From NCBI GenBank assembly GCA_029168955.1, contig JAPDOI010000133.1, positions 247,501-311,500 on the forward strand: 64,000 bases of DNA, given 5' to 3'. This DNA is from Aplectana chamaeleonis (taxonomy: Eukaryota; Nematoda; Chromadorea; Rhabditida; Cosmocercidae). The notes beneath the pieces are model-generated. The model did no database searches. It was not told where the DNA came from and saw nothing but the letters and a program-made list of their open reading frames with translations. The position numbers and the translations under genes were made by a program. Shown here piece by piece: positions 9,679 to 64,000 of this stretch (position 1 is the first letter of the stretch; the number at the start of each line of letters is the position of its first letter).

Positions 9679-10380
9679 GTCGTTATAGACCGGCAGGACG
9701 CTGCGGGAAGGCCAGGACAACTGTCACTCACTATGCTGAGGCACATCAAGAGGAAGAGTTTTTGCAGAAAATGCGGCGGAAAGTCGCACCGAGCAGTTAT
9801 ACACGCCGCGGCACTGTGTACTTCGTCGTTGCGGGACCTACTCAGTTGAAAACTTTCGTTGCGGGACCCAACCAATTTGAAATTTGCCATTTTCCACCAC
9901 CTGAATTTTCAGTCTCAATGACGCACTACTGCAAACGAATACCTAATTCGCACAGCCAGCTGCGGCAGTGAGATTGCGGGACATTTTCGTTCCGGCGGTG
10001 TATAACTACTCAGAAAGATGGAAACTAGTAGCTTGTAACATAAATGTAGCTTACTTGAACGTCTGAAGCAACTTAGATTTATATTGAATGTAAGTTACAC
10101 TTATGTTACATGTAACTTACATTTTTTTCACCGTGGGTGGCCTTCAAGCGCCGCATACGACACGCGACGCGGAGAGCGCGTCCGCACTGCTCACAGAACA
10201 CACGCTACGCGAAATACACTGTGCGAGGCGTTCCTTGTTGGTGTGGGGTCGAGTACCTCAAAACTGACAGGAAACACGATAGCCTCCTTTCTGCCTTCAG
10301 CCAAACATGGAAAAATCTCCAATCAACAATTATCTTATTACATTCTCGAAACCTGGACAGCCGATCATAGAGTACTATGA

Positions 10381-13223: not shown

Positions 13224-13697
13224 CTCTGAGAGAAATTGCCGCTGCGGCTCCGCGATAGTGCCGCTTTAGAGCCTACAGACACCGAAGCAGCACTATAGCG
13301 CAGCCAAGTCGGCACTACCGCGGTAGTGCCGCCGCGGCTCCGGGAGTGCCTCATACGAAGCTAATTAAAACAAAGGAATACAACTAGGGGTGGGGGCTAA
13401 GAGCAAAAATACGCAACTGCGGTTGCTACGTCCCCTGTCTGATAGAGACAGAGGTTACTGCTGTTTTTAAGCCCAAGGATATACGGAATGAACCTCAAAC
13501 TTGGGTAATTGAGCCGCTGAAAATTTCATTTCACCACACAGGGCAGTACATCGTACTGCACGCGGGTTCGCTGCTGCATTCTCTCGGAGCTGACGCGGTT
13601 CTAACGCGCAGCCGCTGCGGTGCTATCGCGGAACCATCGCGGCATAGTCGAGGTTCGCCTTACTTTCCCGGCAGTGGCGCGGCAAATTTTCTCAGAG
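13224..13697. mobile_element. Inverted-repeat element with SL RNA-like cargo (family G-like)
   Basis: The left terminus ctctgagagaaattgccgc and the right terminus gcggcaaattttctcagag are inverted copies with one mismatch. The subterminal regions are rich in gccgcggctccg and its complement. The outermost bases ctctgagag are shared with the two SL-bearing elements at 20400 and 26195. It is nested inside foldback element M copy 2. Confidence 0.7.
13404..13515 (-). ncRNA. Spliced-leader RNA-like sequence, copy c
   Basis: Read on the minus strand, the first 22 nt match the nematode SL1 leader at 20 positions, with two T-to-C changes at positions 3 and 5. The leader is followed at once by GT, the expected splice donor. 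The 112-nt segment can then form stem I (nt 1–7 with 40–46, allowing G–U pairs), a 9-bp stem II (62–70 with 76–84) and a 4-bp stem III (91–94 with 99–102). It ends in AUUUUUG (106–112), which fits an Sm-protein site. This is the organisation and length expected of an SL RNA, though in known SL1 RNA the Sm site precedes the last stem. No 5S rRNA neighbour or promoter was recognised. It could be a functional variant or a fossil. Confidence 0.55.
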
Positions 13698-20399: not shown

Positions 20400-20926
20400 C
20401 TCTGAGAGTTTTGGCCGAGAAATAGCCGCGAAATGCCTTCTTGCCGCGTAATAGCCGCCGAATAATGCTCACCGCGAAATGGCCGAGAAAGAGCCGCTAA
20501 ATAATGCTCGCCGCAAAGTGCCCGCCAAATAGTGCTCGCCGCAAAATAGCCGCGAAATATCCGAGAAATAGTGCTCTCCATGTAGATCTACGGAGCATTC
20601 CAGAGCCATGATTTGGATGTCAGCACCTCCGTCGGTTCAATTACCCAAGTTTGAGGTACTTGAACCTCGTTCAGCCTCTGGAGGCCCCGCCCAACCGCTG
20701 GCGGCCCTAGATGGTGGCTCGGCGAGCCGGCTAAGGTTGCGTCTTGATCATTTTTGTTTACTTTTAAATATTTCTCGGGTATATCTCGGCTATTTCTCGT
20801 CTACTTCTTGTCCGTTCCGTGAGAAGCCGAGAAATAGCCGCGAAATAGCCGGGAAATAGCTCACCAGGAGCCGCTGCGGAGCCTGGTGGGCTATTTCCCG
20901 GCTATTCCGCGGCCAAACTCTTAGAG
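20400..20926. mobile_element. Foldback element family G with SL cassette, copy 1
   Basis: Begins ctctgagagttttggccgag and ends ggccaaactcttagag. Both arms are arrays of a degenerate 10–13-nt unit (gcgaaatagccg, with its complement on the other side). The middle holds the SL-like sequence at 20634. An inverted sister copy lies at 26195–26742. It is in an intron of the minus-strand membrane protein gene. Confidence 0.8.
20634..20756 (+). ncRNA. Spliced-leader RNA-like sequence, copy a
   Basis: The 22 nt at 20634–20655 match the nematode SL1 leader at 21 positions (T5 to C), and the next bases are GT. ggttcaa (20634–20640) pairs perfectly with ttgaacc (20660–20666), the equivalent of SL RNA stem I. 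Then follow three short self-complementary blocks (20674–20685, 20695–20704 and 20716–20728) and auuuuug at 20750–20756, a possible Sm site. It sits between the palindromic arms of a family G element. In nematodes SL RNA donates its leader to mRNAs by trans-splicing; whether this copy is transcribed cannot be judged from sequence. Confidence 0.55.
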
Positions 20927-26194: not shown

Positions 26195-26742
26195 CTCTGA
26201 GAGTTTTGGCCTCGAAACAGCCCAACAGGCTCCGCAGCAGCCCCTGGTGGGCTATTTCGCGACTATTTCGCGGCCATTTCCCTGCTTCTCACGGAACGGA
26301 CAAGAAATAGCCGAGAAATAGCCGAGATGTGACCGAGAAATGTTTAGAAGTAAACATAATCAACCAAGACTCAACCGTCACCGGCTCGCCGAGCCACCAT
26401 CTGAGGCCGCCAGCGGTTGGGCGGCGCCTCCAGAGGCTGAGCGAGGTCCAAGTACCTCAAACTTGGGTAATTGAACCGACGCAGTTGCTGACATCTGAAT
26501 CATGCCTCTGGAATGCGCCGTATATCTACCAGGTGAGCATTATTTCACGGCTATTTCGCGGCTATATCGCGGCGAGCATTATTTGGCGGCTATTTTGCGG
26601 CGAGCATTATTTAGCGGCCATTTCTCGGCTATTTCGCGGCTATTTCACGGCGAGCAATATTTGGCGGCTATTTCGCGGCCATTAAGCGGCAAGCAGGCAT
26701 TTCTCGGCTGTTTCGCGGCTATTTCTCGGCCAAAACTCTCAG
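26195..26742. mobile_element. Foldback element family G with SL cassette, copy 2 (inverted)
   Basis: Begins ctctgagagttttggcctcg and ends ctatttctcggccaaaactc then tcag. The right arm repeats units such as ggctatttcgcggc and the left arm holds fewer complementary units. It is the inverse of the 20400–20926 copy and is nested in foldback element M copy 3. Confidence 0.8.
26354..26477 (-). ncRNA. Spliced-leader RNA-like sequence, copy b
   Basis: On the minus strand the 22 nt at 26477–26456 match SL1 at 21 positions with the same T5-to-C change as copy a, followed by GT. Stem I is kept with one G–U pair (ggttcaa with ttggacc). The later self-complementary blocks are conserved with copy a, but the auuuuug site has become auuaug, so this copy looks decayed. 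Confidence 0.5.
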
Positions 26743-26847
26743 AAAAGCAGCTTATTTATATGAACTTTCTGATACAAGAAATAGAAAATAAACGCACTTA
26801 CCTAAGAATGTTGGAGCGCTATACCTTTTCTGACGCTTGAGTTGGCG

Positions 26848-40496: not shown

Positions 40497-41783
40497 TTAG
40501 GTCTAGAAGTTAATTTCCGCGTTTTTGTTGTTATTGATATTTTGTAAAAAATAAAATTATTTTTATATAACGAATTTTATGTTATAATGCTCACTGTATT
40601 ATCAGCTTTCTATTGATATATAACTTGCTTCACGTACCTTATAAAAAAAGTATTATTTTAGTTTCAGAATATGTCAACTTTTGTGCCGGAAAAACGCCAT
40701 TTGCGGGAAGCTCTCCTTTTCCTTTTTCATCTCAAGAAGAAAGCCACTGACGCGCACCAAATGCTTGCCCAAGCTTACGGGGATGCTGCTCCATCCATAA
40801 GAATCTGCCAAGAATGGTTTCAGCGTTTCAAATCGGGTGATTTTGACGTTAAGGACAAAGATCGACCAGGACAGCCAAAAAAGTTCGAAGACGAAGAACT
40901 TCAGGCTTTGTTGGATCAAGATTCGGCTCAAACGCAAGAACAGCTCGCGGCATCTCTCGGCGTCACCCAAAAAGCAATTTCTATTCGATTGAAGGCAATG
41001 GGGAAGATTCAAAAGGAAGGAAAATGGATCCCCTATGAGCTCTCAGAACGCAACAAAGAGCAGAGAAAACAACTTCACAAATCTTGTTGGACCGATTCCA
41101 AAGAAAGTCTTTTTACACCGCATCATAACTGGCGATGAAAAGTGGGTGTACTACGACAATCCGAAGCGAAGAAAATCGTGGGTTAGTCCTGGTGAAACAA
41201 CAACTTCGACCGCAAAACCAAACATCCACGGGAAGAAGGTCTTACTGTGCATATGGTGGGATCAACGCGGTATACTGTACTATGAACTTCTTCAACCTGG
41301 CGAAACAGTTACTGCGAATCGCTATCAACATCAACTAGCGCAATTGCGGCATGAAATCGAAGCAAAGAGACCAGAATGGGCGAGTCGACACGAAAAAGTC
41401 ATATTGCTTCATGATAACGCTCGACCTCATGTTGCTCGAACGGTAAAGGGTACGCTAAAAGAGTTCAAATGGGAAGTCTTACCGCACCCGCCGTACTCTC
41501 CAGACATCGCCCCGTCGGATTATCACCTTTTCCGGTCAATGGCGCATGGTCTAGCGGAGCAGCGCTTTCAAGATCGTCAAGATGTCAAAAAATGGCTCGA
41601 TGAATGGGTGGAGGCCAAACCAGAAAAATTTTATTATGATGGAATCCATAAGTTACCCAAACTCTGGGAAATGGTTGTTATTAATGACGGAAATTATTTT
41701 GAATAAAAATTTTGTTTAAGTATGTCCAGTTTTCAATAGTGTAAAAAGCGTAAAAAAACGCGGAAATTAACTTCTAGACCTAA
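40497..41783 (+). mobile_element. Mariner-family DNA transposon, element 1
   Basis: The element is 1,287 bp, flanked by TA on both sides (40495–40496 and 41784–41785). The terminal inverted repeats are 30 bp and identical (40497–40526 and 41754–41783, beginning ttaggtctagaagttaattt). It encodes a transposase (40671–41706). Size, TA target and termini are those of IS630-Tc1-mariner elements. The perfect termini suggest recent insertion, although the transposase frame is broken. It inserted just downstream of the 185-bp satellite. Confidence 0.97.
40671..41706 (+). pseudogene. Mariner transposase, two 1-bp deletions
   Basis: The ORF from ATG 40671 encodes the N-terminal helix-turn-helix region (starts MSTFVPEKRH; contains GVTQKAISIRLKAMG) up to WIPYELSER, the mariner linker motif. 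Frame is then lost in the A run at 41066–41069 and again in the T run at 41111–41115; between them the third frame reads as transposase. From there to TAA at 41704 the catalytic domain is intact: first Asp in TGDEKWVYY, second in LLHDNARPH, third in PSDYHLF, with 34 residues between the last two (DD34D). Overall resemblance is to cecropia-type mariners. Each lesion is a single missing base in a homopolymer, so sequencing error is an alternative. Confidence 0.93.
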
Positions 41784-46114: not shown

Positions 46115-47349
46115 TTAGGGTGAGTCATAAGTTCTTGGAATTTTTCAAAAATTCATATTAATTCGCGCGCGAATAGATCAAATGCCACTCGTGCGCGGTT
46201 GTTTGCTAGGTAGACCAAACCTCGTTAATCAATACCTGCCAGCCCTCGAAACGCCATTCGTGGCTCAGTAAAGTGTCGGAAAAAGAGCACGCTCGCGTAC
46301 TGATTCTTCACTACTTCGAAAGAGGTTCCACAGCTGCTCAAACTGTTAAGGAAATAAGGGCCAACGAAGGAAGGTATCGAATTGCGGCCAGTACTGTGTA
46401 CAACTGGTATCAAAAGTTTCGCTCCGGCAGCTGCTCTCTGAAGGACAAGCCGAGATGTGGAAGGCCACGAATTCACGACCCCACGTTGGCGGCGAATGAG
46501 CTGGAGAAAAACCCGCACCTTCACAGCAGAGGTCAGCTTACAGGGAGTTCGCAGTCAACCGCAGTTCGCCAGCTACACAATATGGGACTGAGACCGAAAA
46601 AGCCGTCCGTGATTCCTCACACTTTATACGACACCGACAGGAATCGCAGGATGGCCATTTGTCAAGAACTACTGAAACGGCACCACAAAGGAAGTTTTTT
46701 GGTCGCATCATTACATGTGATGAGAAGTGGTGCTACTATAACAATCCTGACCTGTCTGTGCAATGGGTTAAGCCCTTTGCGTCGCCAGATCCTGTGCAAA
46801 GTCGGGATATCCACGGAAAAAAGAGTCTACTGACCGTTTTTTTTTTTGTCCACTGATGGAGTTGTGTTCTGGAAATTACTTCCGCCAGGAAAGACTATAG
46901 ATGCTGACTACGTCTGCCAAGAACTAGAAGAAATGGTCACCAACGCGGAGAAAAATGGACGAAAACGTGACCAGATCCTACTGCTCTGGGACAACTGCCG
47001 CCCACACATAGCGAAAAAAACTCAAGAAAAATTGAAGGAGCTGCAGTTGGAAACTCTCCCTCATCCAGCCTACAGTCCAGATATTGCTCCATCGGACTAC
47101 CATTTATTCAGAAGCCTCGAACACTGGTTGAGGGGAAAGCAGCTTAAGACCGAAGAGAACTTGAGGACCGAGTTGGACGCTTTTTTTGCATCGAAGCGGC
47201 GCTCATTCTACGACTACGGTATTCGAAGTCTCGCTCGTCGTCTGCAGAAAGTTGTTCGTTGTAATGGCTCTTACTTTGAATAAATTTGTTACCTTGTGTT
47301 TAAGAAAAAATAAAAATAAAAAATTCCAAGAACTTGTGACTCACCCTAA
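46115..47349 (+). mobile_element. Mariner-family DNA transposon, element 2
   Basis: The element is 1,235 bp, flanked by TA at 46113–46114 and 47350–47351. The 31-bp terminal inverted repeats (46115–46145 and 47319–47349, beginning ttagggtgagtcataagttc) differ at one position. It encodes a broken transposase (46273–47283). Termini and protein differ clearly from the element at 40497, so it is another mariner subfamily. Confidence 0.97.
46273..47283 (+). pseudogene. Mariner transposase, frameshifted
   Basis: The frame opens at a GTG (46273), probably a mutated start codon, and encodes the DNA-binding half (SEKEHARVLILHYFERGSTA…). It shifts in the T6 run at 46695–46700 and again in an 11-T run at 46837–46847, where the usual Trp-rich strand has been replaced. 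The catalytic triad is readable across frames: first Asp in ITCDEKWCYY, second in LLLWDNCRPH, third in PSDYHLF, with 34 residues between the last two. It ends in NGSYFE, the normal mariner C-terminus. It is not functional as read. Confidence 0.92.
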
Positions 47350-53795: not shown

Positions 53796-55095
53796 GGGAC
53801 TAGTGTAAATAACCTCCTAGAACGCCTTGGGCTCACTTGTGCCTGACGCGGTCAATTCGCATCTTTGCCGAGGTGTGCAGTCCTAACAGTCAGTCGTGTC
53901 CACTTGTCATGGTCTTCAGCCACAATTTGAACAAATTCCATCTTTCTGTCCACTTCCAGCAAAGATAAATATCGAGCCTGAATTGCCTTTCAATGCCAAG
54001 TGATTTCAAATCCTCCTTCATCTTATCCGTCCAAAACCTTCACACACGTCCAGGCGACCGTTTCCACACAGGACTCGGAAGCATCCTTAAAAAGTGTTGA
54101 AGAAGGCGATCTGGCGGTCTTCTCAAAATATGCCCGAACAGACGAAGACGACCTTCTGTTGCCGCTTAAGATGACGTTGGGAGACGTTGACACCTCCCTC
54201 GTCTCAATCGATAATGTTATGGGTCGATTTCGTTGTAGAAATCTTCGTTGTGACACATCAGCGGCCGGAAATATCCAAGCAAAAGTTTTAACAGCTACCT
54301 CTCCGTGCAATCCAACCTCTCCATCTGCGTCTTCGGTGCTGCCCACGTCTCCGATCCGTACATCATGATAGGGCGAAAAACGGATAAGTAGACGCGCAAC
54401 TTGACTTCCTTCGCGATGTCGGTAGACCACAAACACTTGGTTAGGGACAGAAATCATCCACCAGTTTGATACGTTGTCCGTCCACACAAACACCCGTTGA
54501 AGGCCTCTGAGAGACCCACATCTGCTTGCATTTGTCGGGACAAAGACGAAGTCCATAGGCTGCGGCATACTTCGAAACGAGGTTCGCAACCCTTTGCAGT
54601 TTTGCGTTGTTTTCGGAAAATAACACAATATCGTCGGCGTTTTCCAGGTCGACAAGGGAGCGCCTTGATAGTGTTAGTATCAAGTCCGCAGTAAACTGAT
54701 CTGCAACTCTAGGCATAATGTCATTAACGGCGAAGTTTAATAGAAAAGGTCCTGCTACAGCTCCTTGTCTTCCTACTGTTTTCACCTCGAATGCTAACGT
54801 AAATCCGACAGGTGTACAAGCTGCTGCTGTTGTTTCTTTGTCAAAGTCCTCGATTAGTCGAACATACTTTTCCGGAACTCCATCGGCTCGCAGAGTGTTG
54901 AGCAATCGATCACGATGAGGAGATATGAATGCGGCTCCGAAGTCTAAGAAGACCACTACTTTGGCTCCGAAAATCGCTGCCACAATTCAACTAATTCTAT
55001 CACGAAGAACGCTGAAAAAGATTGCAGATCTTCCAAGTCGGAATCTCAGCTTGCTCAGGAGCCGTCTCTTCTTCACAATCTGAGAAACCCACAAC
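53796..55095 (-). pseudogene. RTE-like non-LTR retr-element fragment (RT and C-terminal part)
   Basis: On the minus strand this aligns with the reverse transcriptase at 63720–64000: conserved text includes RDRLLNTLRADGVPEKYVRL (about 54880) and the upstream finger region out to about 55090. The motif-A equivalent reads FLDFGAAFIS and the catalytic box reads NADD rather than the usual Y/F-A-D-D, so it would be inactive. From 54500 down to about 53850 the C-terminal domain (PIMMYGSETWAAP, then a GHILRRPPDR block) is readable only by switching frames and passing stops. It is truncated upstream of motif 2, as expected for 5'-truncated retrocopies, and ends near 53800 without a visible poly-A tail. 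Confidence 0.88.
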
Positions 55096-61790: not shown

Positions 61791-64000
61791 GGGGGTGTGT
61801 ATACAAGTCTGTTGGTACCTGCTCGTTGGTGCCCCTGCTTCTACTGAACCCAGCAGACGTTTGAGTATACACAGGGAACGTTCGAGCGATATAGCGTGCA
61901 CAACTATATCGCGAAAGTATCCCGCACATTGCATAAAGGTGTCGCCGTCCGGCACACTAAGGCCTCTGGTCCATAACACCTTAGGATCCGTACCTAGGGA
62001 GTTCATGGAGTCTTTGGCCACAAGCCACAATTTCGCCACCCTGAATTGCCGGTCATTGTCGAGTGATATCCAACAATCTGCGTTGTCCAATCTTCTGAGC
62101 TACTTCCATGCACCGTTTGCTGCTTTGCAGGAAACTCGCCTCGAGGATAGACCAGTCATCAACGTCGGAGAGTACGTCATCTACTGTGGTGACGCTGATG
62201 ATAGGAGAGTGGGAGGCTGAGCGATAGCTGTAAGGAAGGACTACAATGGTATGATCGAGGAATTCGGCTCGACGTCGTGTAGGAATGCATTTGTGCGACT
62301 GCGGGATCACAGTGGATTCAATCTGTGGATAGTGAGTGCTCATGCGCCCATCGAAACCGCCGAAGACAATTCCAAGGATGCCTTCTACGAGGAATTCAAT
62401 ACGTTGCTAGCCAGGATACCTTGTCAACATGCTGTTGTGGTGGGAATCGACGCAAACGCGAAGATGGGACTTGATCAGGAATCCGAAGTACTCGGTAAAT
62501 GGTTCTTCCCAGTGGAGCAAACATCGGACAATGGCTACCGCCTTGTCGACTTTTGTGAACGCAGTGCTCTGATTATTGCATCGACATTCAAGAGGAATCA
62601 TCGCCGCCATCAGCTTACGTGGCAGGGACCAACCCAGCTATCTCTGAAAGAGCAGTGGAAGCGGAAGATGACAACTTTGAAACTACAGCTTGACTATGTC
62701 CTGACGAGGAATATTCCAGTATCGGACATTCAAAGGTCTAGAGCTGTGTGGGATGTCGCATTCGATTCGGATCGCCGTCCTGTTCTGTTGAACTTCACTG
62801 CGAGGATTCATAAGAGGAAGCGAGATGCTAAGCCTCTCCAGAGAATTGATACGACAAGTCTCAGGGATGAAGAATGCAGAAGAAAATTCCGACAACGCGT
62901 TTCTGTTCATATCGGAGTACGGACTAAGAAGAAACTTTGCGACGCGGACTCTTTCGTCAAGTGCATCCAGGACGCTTCGAAAGAGGCACTCCCGGTTGTA
63001 CAGCCCAGGAAGAAGCTCGCCTACGTCTCAGAGGAAACAACATCTACTTACAACAGAGTATGTGCTCTCCGAACTGCAGGAAACTTCGTGGAGGAGAAGC
63101 GTCTCAGGAGGATTTTGCGCCGGCAGCTTCAAAATGACCGCGATCGAGAATGGACGTGTAGAGCTAAGGAGTTTGAGAAGGCCTGGGAGGAGAAGAATCC
63201 GAGGAAAGCCTACACGTTGTTACGACAGTATAGCGGCAAGATGAAGAGATGTTCTGCTGTCCTCAACACTACCAATGGAGTTGCAGTTGGTGATGCGACG
63301 CTGCCATTATGAAGGGATTACTTCAGTTCACTACTGAATCGTCCAGTGCCATCAGTACCAGAGCTGCCGCATGTTCAGAGAGCACATTACGATGTCAGTG
63401 AAGAACCGCCGACTGAGTCTGAAGTTTCGAATTGTGTCCGGAAAATGAAGAATGGAAAGGCAGGTGGAGATGAAAACATCACTGCTGAAATGCTGAAAGC
63501 TCTTCCTCCGTCTGGGATTCGTGAAATGACCAACACCATCCGTGCCATATGGATGAGCGAAAGGATACCCGATTCGTGGAGACATGCGATCATCGTACCT
63601 CTTCACGAGAAGCTATCCGTCACGGATCCCAAGAACTACAGAGGAATCTCTCTACTTCGTGTTATGTACAAGGTTTTAGAGCGTATCATTCTCGAGCGAC
63701 TTATCAAACATCGTGAAGGAACGACCAGAGATGAGCAAGCCGGTTTTCGACCTGGAAGATCGACCATCGACCAAGTGTTCGTCGTGAGAAGAGTAATTGA
63801 ATCGTGGCAGCGGTTTTCGAAGCCATTACAGCTTGCTTTTTTGGACTTCGAAGCCGCGTTCGACTCTCCTCATCGTGATCGATTGCTCAATGCTCTGCGA
63901 GCCGATGGAGTCCCGGAAAAGTATGTTCGGTTAATCGAGGACATGAACAAAGGAACAACAGCAGCAGTTCGTACGCCTGTCGGATTTACGTCAGCTTTCA
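61789..64000 (+). pseudogene. RTE-like non-LTR retroelement, endonuclease and RT, runs off window
   Basis: A single frame (61789 onward) is interrupted by TGA at 62218–62220 (after VGG, where a Cys codon would fit) and at 63310–63312 (where a Trp codon would fit). The first part is an apurinic-type endonuclease: TLNCRSL near 62030, catalytic Glu in LQETRLED near 62130, Asp in VGIDANAK near 62445. The normally invariant His of the SDH motif is Arg (SDRRPV near 62770), so nicking activity is probably lost. RT motifs follow: NYRGISLLRVMYKVLERII, DEQAGFRPGRSTIDQVF and LAFLDFEAAFDS (about 63835). The YxDD box lies beyond the window. Its upstream border may include the repeat at 61320. Confidence 0.92.

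Follow-up and report, generated by a model that had tools for sequence, protein, structure and literature searches.

SL RNA genes are usually seen as host gene arrays, and the C. elegans SL1 RNA gene, with its sequence and its 5S linkage, is used here as a yardstick. What, then, does an SL1 leader with a single mismatch represent when it lies at the centre of a transposon-like element: an SL RNA gene dispersed by mobile DNA, and if so, one whose copies still work? The question is raised by a 64,000-nucleotide stretch of Aplectana chamaeleonis DNA (the window; contig JAPDOI010000133.1, positions 247,501 to 311,500, forward strand).

An SL1-like leader within a foldback element

An earlier note on this DNA had described an SL1-like leader (21/22), followed at once by GT, inside a 527-bp palindromic element. 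The leader was confirmed as GGTTCAATTACCCAAGTTTGAG at 20634-20655, with one mismatch to SL1 (T5C, a C at position 5), followed by GTAC. When the SL1 22-mer was scanned across the window at up to three mismatches, three matches were obtained (20634 +, 26456 - and 13494 -) and none in 100 shuffles; the leader in copy a is not due to chance. The length and foldback character of the element also held, but GAAATAGCCGC-type units make up its composite arms, and "palindromic" applies only loosely as there is no single long perfect palindrome. The features referred to below are as follows.

20400..20926, + strand: F1 foldback/MITE-like element, copy a; 527 bp, ends at 20400-20417 and 20909-20926
20578..20597, + strand: candidate promoter (PSE-like) block, -56 to -37 from the exon, by F1/F2 consensus sharing
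20634..20655, + strand: SL1-like exon of copy a, T5C variant, 21/22 match to SL1
20656..20666, + strand: GT donor and 3' side of stem-loop I (GTACTTGAACC); 34-nt fold, z -3.96
20749..20756, + strand: Sm-like U-tract CATTTTTG, predicted unpaired; F1 family consensus TTAATTTTGTTT
26195..26744, - strand: F1 element, copy c; 550 bp, 2-bp flanks GA/AA, not identical
26456..26477, - strand: SL1-like exon of copy c (T5C), from the SL1 22-mer scan, 21/22
13224..13697, - strand: F3 element, copy b; 474 bp, arms and body differ, 2-bp flanks TA/AA, not identical
13494..13515, - strand: SL1-like exon of copy b, two mismatches to SL1 (20/22)
10009..10262, - strand: shortened F2 element; its exon is reduced to TTTGAG plus the donor GTAC, at 10253-10262

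The window contains two F1 elements, one F3 element and one truncated F2 element. Copy a runs from CTCTGAGAGTTTTGGCCG at 20400 up to CTCTTAGAG at 20926 and is flanked by AG/AG, making it the only one of elements a, b and c to have kept an exact target duplication. Within its U-tract (CATTTTTG, from 20749), ATTTTTG begins at 20750; the corresponding tract of copy c is interrupted (GATTATG). Nothing in the window reached the gathering score in Rfam. An F1-like right end with one mismatch was also seen at 553-570, inside another inverted-repeat structure at 163-725, and is possibly a remnant or a nested insertion. Elsewhere in the window, a LINE endonuclease-type ORF or fragment lies at 62221-63309 (the best 120 of 208 matches were all Necator americanus proteins, a likeness that would suggest a clade V nematode as host), and ORFs at 54441-54986, 40662-41706 and 46210-47283 resemble, by eye, pieces of reverse transcriptase and mariner-type transposase.

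Three abundant element families carry the leader

The genome (1.037 Gb, 2,087 contigs) was searched for the C5 22-mer at up to three mismatches, giving at least 15,952 places (7,927 + 8,025; all such place counts are lower bounds) compared with four for the reversed control. Exact C5 copies occur at about 5 per Mb (79 in contigs C1 and C2, 15.5 Mb, five of them in the tandem array at L031). The first 30 exact-C5 loci, which came from the first contigs in the list and not from a random draw, were clustered by their flanks together with the three window copies, producing F2 (19), F1 (11, including two window copies) and F3 (3, including one).

Alignment revealed sharp element ends, the F1 boundary being the point beyond which alignment was lost among 11 F1 copies. 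F1 elements end in CTCTGAGAGTTTTGGCCG...CGGCCAAAACTCTCAGAG and span 403-574 bp (36 elements). F2 elements end in CTCAGAAAAATGAAAACAAG...CTTGTTTTGATTTTTCTGAG and span 427-711 bp in 11/15 cases and 1,128-1,238 bp in 4/15, where these four spans above 1.1 kb may join two neighbouring copies. The three F3 copies begin with CTCTGAGAgAATTTGCCG... and measure 474-510 bp. Ends are of the CTC...GAG type, with terminal sequences that include CTCTGAGAG and CTCAGAAAAATG, and the arms consist of short repeats specific to each family. Inverted terminal repeats with defined ends, as expected of MITE/foldback elements, are present. A 24-base F1 flank was found at 1,631 places (up to three mismatches) and a 27-base F2 flank at 2,833, indicating many dispersed copies, although these family sizes count short patterns and not whole elements. 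The elements also look clustered: the 3-kb loci L001-L061 held fifteen leader-like sites (up to four substitutions) beside the sampled ones, which is above the genome-average expectation, though some may have been counted twice where loci overlap.

Target site duplications are 2 bp long. Identical 2-bp flanks were found for 29/36 F1 and 11/15 F2 elements, against 258/1260 and 36/210 in cross-locus controls, and 3-bp duplications for only 2/36 and 0/15. These counts cover elements with both ends (5/41 F1 and 4/19 F2 loci were left out) and are not fully independent, as L010 and L034 are one element and L014 and L015 share flanks. The 2-bp duplication applies to F1 and F2; F3 copies are few, and most rows retrieved with the F3 end pattern are F1 elements. 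Tc1/mariner elements duplicate TA, and a TA-only origin failed since TA makes up just 16/40 of the F1 and F2 duplications; AT was seen in 0/40, the others comprising TT, AA, TC, GA, CA, CT, TG and AG. This mixture also ruled out an AT-only ISL2EU assignment: ISL2EU/PHIS elements share the 2-bp length, but the duplication described in the available text is AT (PMC4482050). Mutator elements of the Tm1 type were ruled out because 9-bp duplications would be expected. F1, F2 and F3 are probably short, non-autonomous DNA transposons of the foldback/MITE-like kind.

The cassette resembles an SL RNA gene in its architecture

F1 and F2 arrange their cassettes in one order: an upstream block near -55, the exon, a GT donor, a stem-loop I in which the exon takes part, and a U-tract. 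The F3 cassette comprises exon, donor and U-tract, with no clear stem-loop I. The 22-nt exon matches SL1 at 21/22 positions in copies a and c and 20/22 in copy b, and the T5 form (22/22) occurs in some F1, F2 and F3 copies. GTAC follows the exon in the F1 and F2 consensus, and the donor has been lost from some copies (e.g., L030, L063 and L143). As in nematode SL1 RNA genes of the C. elegans type, a 22-nt exon (21/22), a GT donor, an exon-intron stem-loop I and a downstream U-tract are thus combined; unlike those genes, the sequences described here lie in transposon-like elements, mostly have C at position 5 and possess a body that varies by family.

Directly after the F1 exon, GTACTTGGACC pairs with exon bases 1-7; beyond it lie GC-rich stems and an AAUUUUG tract that stays open. 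Copy a pairs perfectly (exon GGUUCAA with UUGAACC, the TTGAACC of GTACTTGAACC), and its 34 nt of exon and first intron bases fold at -14.4 kcal/mol, a value equalled by 0/200 shuffles. Longer folds were modestly better than shuffles, with z -1.69 for copy a (127 nt; 11/200 as good), z -2.27 for copy c (3/200) and z -2.50 for copy b (2/200). The F2 consensus keeps the exon, followed by GTACTTGACC and a long U-tract in a loop of the minimum-energy fold, and its stem-loop I has the same shape as that of F1, including the C5-G pair. F3 has its own hairpin and U-tract, and stem-loop I did not form in the folds of copy b and L016.

The U-tracts read AAUUUUGU in F1, CAUUUUUGU in copy a, CAUUUUUUUGC in F2, and UAUUUUGU and UAUUUUUGC in F3; that of copy c is lost. 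An Sm site is described, in the part of the source available, as a single-stranded purine-AU4-6G-purine (PMC6362198). When compared with this rule, the tracts did not have the required purines at both ends.

The upstream block is shared between F1 and F2. Their consensus sequences agree at 15/20 bases at -56/-55 (0/300 shuffles as good for the 20-base block; 3/300 and 2/300 for 12- and 16-base blocks), and the local alignment of positions -75 to -1 was matched by 0/500 shuffles. The block is GRTRTACGRMGCAYTC-like and lies at a nearly constant distance from the exon in both families; in F3 it is weak at most in copy b and absent in L016. In nematodes, snRNA loci have a SNAPc-binding motif in their upstream region, according to the accessible portion of one study (PMC6436959), and for this reason the block is a candidate PSE, an snRNA-type promoter element. 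Because of this shared block, F1 and F2 probably possess one cassette by common descent, as judged from sequence. Homology of the bodies is not claimed, since 34/500 shuffles aligned as well.

Homology of the F3 cassette to F1 or F2 outside the exon was rejected, as upstream and body alignments were no better than shuffles. Position-constrained tests with 12, 16 and 20 bases gave, respectively, 6, 8 and 19 of 300 shuffles as good for F2 against copy b; 173, 88 and 125 for F2 against L016; 184, 19 and 177 for F1 against copy b; and 296, 246 and 267 for F1 against L016. As its clear likeness to the other families is limited to exon and donor, F3 may have arisen by a capture of its own or represent a cassette that has diverged far. 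The same restriction suggests constraint on, or recapture of, exon and donor in source lineages, which counts against the account of the cassette as a mere passenger.

The cassette architecture also bears on the possibility that the leader is the fossil of a trans-spliced mRNA that was reverse-copied into DNA and then trapped by a transposon. The genome does contain T5 SL1 lacking an SL-RNA-type body (27/40 contexts, see below). However, an mRNA copy would have no GT donor, no intron with stem-loop I, no U-tract and no upstream sequence common to F1 and F2; the donor, intron fold and shared upstream block rule out a retrocopied mRNA as the source of the MITE leader, and this origin is highly improbable.

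Most inserted copies appear to decay with the rest of the element

To see whether the exon diverges less than its surroundings, copies were sampled by flanking sequence and not chosen by exon: 30 F1 loci that match the 24-base flank exactly, and 20 short stretches fetched with the 27-base F2 flank. Both samples are tilted toward young copies because an exact flank match was required. The earlier note had made its reading depend on further leader copies within the element family, and the exon region is indeed present in 30/30 F1 loci (exact C5 in 7/30). In F2, a recognisable exon was found in 18/20 (exact C5 in 4/20); L092 lacks the exon and L094 has only an 8-edit match.

Divergence from the F1 consensus is 40/660 (6.1%) in the exon, 15/300, 44/828 and 70/1480 in the intron and body, and 46/779 and 63/900 just upstream. 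In the 18 F2 copies it is 29/395 (7.3%) in the exon, 13/180, 51/503 and 70/884 downstream, and 74/713 and 77/529 upstream, placing the exon at the low end of the range (7.3% vs 7.2-14.6%). Exon-specific protection is absent among the F1 copies and at most slight in F2, where weak constraint may exist; copy-level purifying selection on the exon was not clearly found in either flank-sampled set.

The presence of the exon region (30/30 F1 and 18/20 F2) marks it as part of the mobile unit. This would also be expected if the SL-like unit served the transposon itself, for example as a transcript or a binding site for mobility, with its likeness to SL RNA due to descent only, and the tandem growth inside one element (L031) points the same way. 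Against this, no tested link ties the cassette to mobility, and copies lacking it were sought only in flank samples whose patterns adjoin the cassette. Such a role is improbable. At L031 itself (C1:5164000-5173999), a single F2 element contains a tandem series of ~370-bp units with six SL exons, of which five are exact, indicating that the cassette unit also grows inside an element; in Rfam, this locus gave just two weak miRNA-family matches.

Exact C5 leaders are confined to the elements in the contexts sampled

The genomic contexts of the two leader forms were compared. All 50 exact C5 contexts fell in F1, F2 or F3, and 0/50 lay outside the MITEs. Thirty of these were classified by the flank clustering above, including L030, an F3 copy without donor, and 20 more were taken in list order, leaving out five sites inside L031 (themselves F2) and one neighbour. 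In this second set the script assigned 5 to F1, 10 to F2 and 4 to F3, and L126, "other" by script, is F2-like by eye. By the rule of three, 0/50 allows up to about 6% of C5 outside the MITEs, and modest C5 use may be compatible with it. The canonical T5 SL1 has 1,024 exact places in the genome. Of 40 contexts (20 classed by eye and 20 in list order by script, skipping three probable partner LTRs), 13 were MITE copies (F1 11, F2 1, F3 1) and 27 were non-MITE sequence, although these 27 are not independent, as several are one repeat family or two ends of one element. The F1 copies with T5 mostly carry GTACGTGG.

These contexts weigh on whether some intact copies, a minority, still act as dispersed SL RNA genes that Pol II would transcribe from the upstream block and whose RNAs would assemble with Sm proteins and donate C5 to mRNAs. 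Exon, donor, stem-loop I with its C5-G pair, U-tract and an upstream block at near-constant distance in F1 and F2 speak for such genes, as do some 5 exact C5 copies per Mb. However, C5 was joined to non-MITE sequence in 0/50 contexts compared with 27/40 for T5, exon-specific conservation is not clear among copies, and the U-tracts do not match the published Sm rule at both ends (PMC6362198). Decay of most copies may still be compatible with a working minority, and we regard activity of this kind as rather unlikely. The fuller proposal, in which Pol II SL RNA genes reside in at least three foldback families and their intact minority supplies the C5 leader to some mRNAs or under some conditions, is to be considered unlikely; if it were true, the leader repertoire of the animal would be partly set by a mobile element. 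The earlier note's suggestion that foldback elements disperse SL RNA genes is accordingly upheld for the gene sequence, which F1 carries genome-wide and of which two further families hold related cassettes, and finds little favour for working genes.

Overall, there is good support for transposons having dispersed SL RNA gene cassettes. The preferred reading, to which we assign a probability of roughly two in three, is that captured SL RNA gene sequence is a passenger of MITEs and mostly dead after insertion. Host SL RNA gene sequence would have been captured by foldback/MITE-type elements, and a putative transposase supplied in trans would then have multiplied them. The cassette would remain recognisable in source lineages, with each inserted copy decaying roughly like the rest of the element. 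Most copies would be SL RNA pseudogenes, and C5 would presumably make at most a small contribution to the pool of mRNA leaders.

Comparison with known systems

In this nematode, several abundant DNA transposon families, with thousands of copies, include SL RNA gene architecture in their mobile unit. Should some of the copies be active, transposition could alter the identity and dosage of the leader. If inactive, they amount to a large natural series of SL RNA gene mutants, and also an annotation trap, as counts of SL1-like sites would greatly overstate the number of SL genes. Genomic SL1 sequence was reportedly found in many transcribed regions of Onchocerca, to go by the title of Zeng, Alarcon and Donelson (1990). 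The exact C5 22-mer appeared in 0 papers of the open-licence literature, and in the text available from that literature no report was found of a transposon that contains an SL RNA gene.

Related systems are known from Meloidogyne. MelSat01 / Mi-SL1b is a repeat family with an SL RNA gene, arranged as a tandem satellite, whose exon and Sm site are reported, in the portion of the article available, as conserved between species, in contrast to the decaying, dispersed inverted-repeat copies described here (PMC9673304). The Tm1 Mutator/Foldback elements have composite short-repeat arms, with a histone hairpin between them in one group; they differ in their 9-bp target duplications, other termini and copy numbers in the tens, and no SL RNA gene was noted in the accessible part of the paper (PMC3169594). 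In C. elegans, spliced mRNA of the LTR retrotransposon Cer1 occurs with and without SL1. As presented in the available text, Cer1 receives SL1 by trans-splicing and carries no SL RNA gene, unlike the elements here (PMC3315495).

T5 SL1 outside the foldback families

Among the non-MITE T5 loci, L083 (C4:6301-8300) and L084 (C4:16401-18400) contain SL1 within a direct repeat that resembles an LTR (96.5% identity over 1,040 aligned bp). SL1 directly follows TATTATAAA, with about 106 bp of the match remaining beyond it, a position that would suit a leader written into the start of the element's transcript. Seven more same-strand T5 pairs lie 7.7-16 kb apart, and their likeness to L083/L084 is one of spacing alone. 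T5 SL1 runs straight into other sequence, with no SL-RNA-type body, at L064/L065, L069/L070, L071, L072, L074, L075, L078-L080, L106-L115, L117, L119, L123 and L124; such loci are candidates for retrocopied trans-spliced transcripts or SL1-bearing retroelements.
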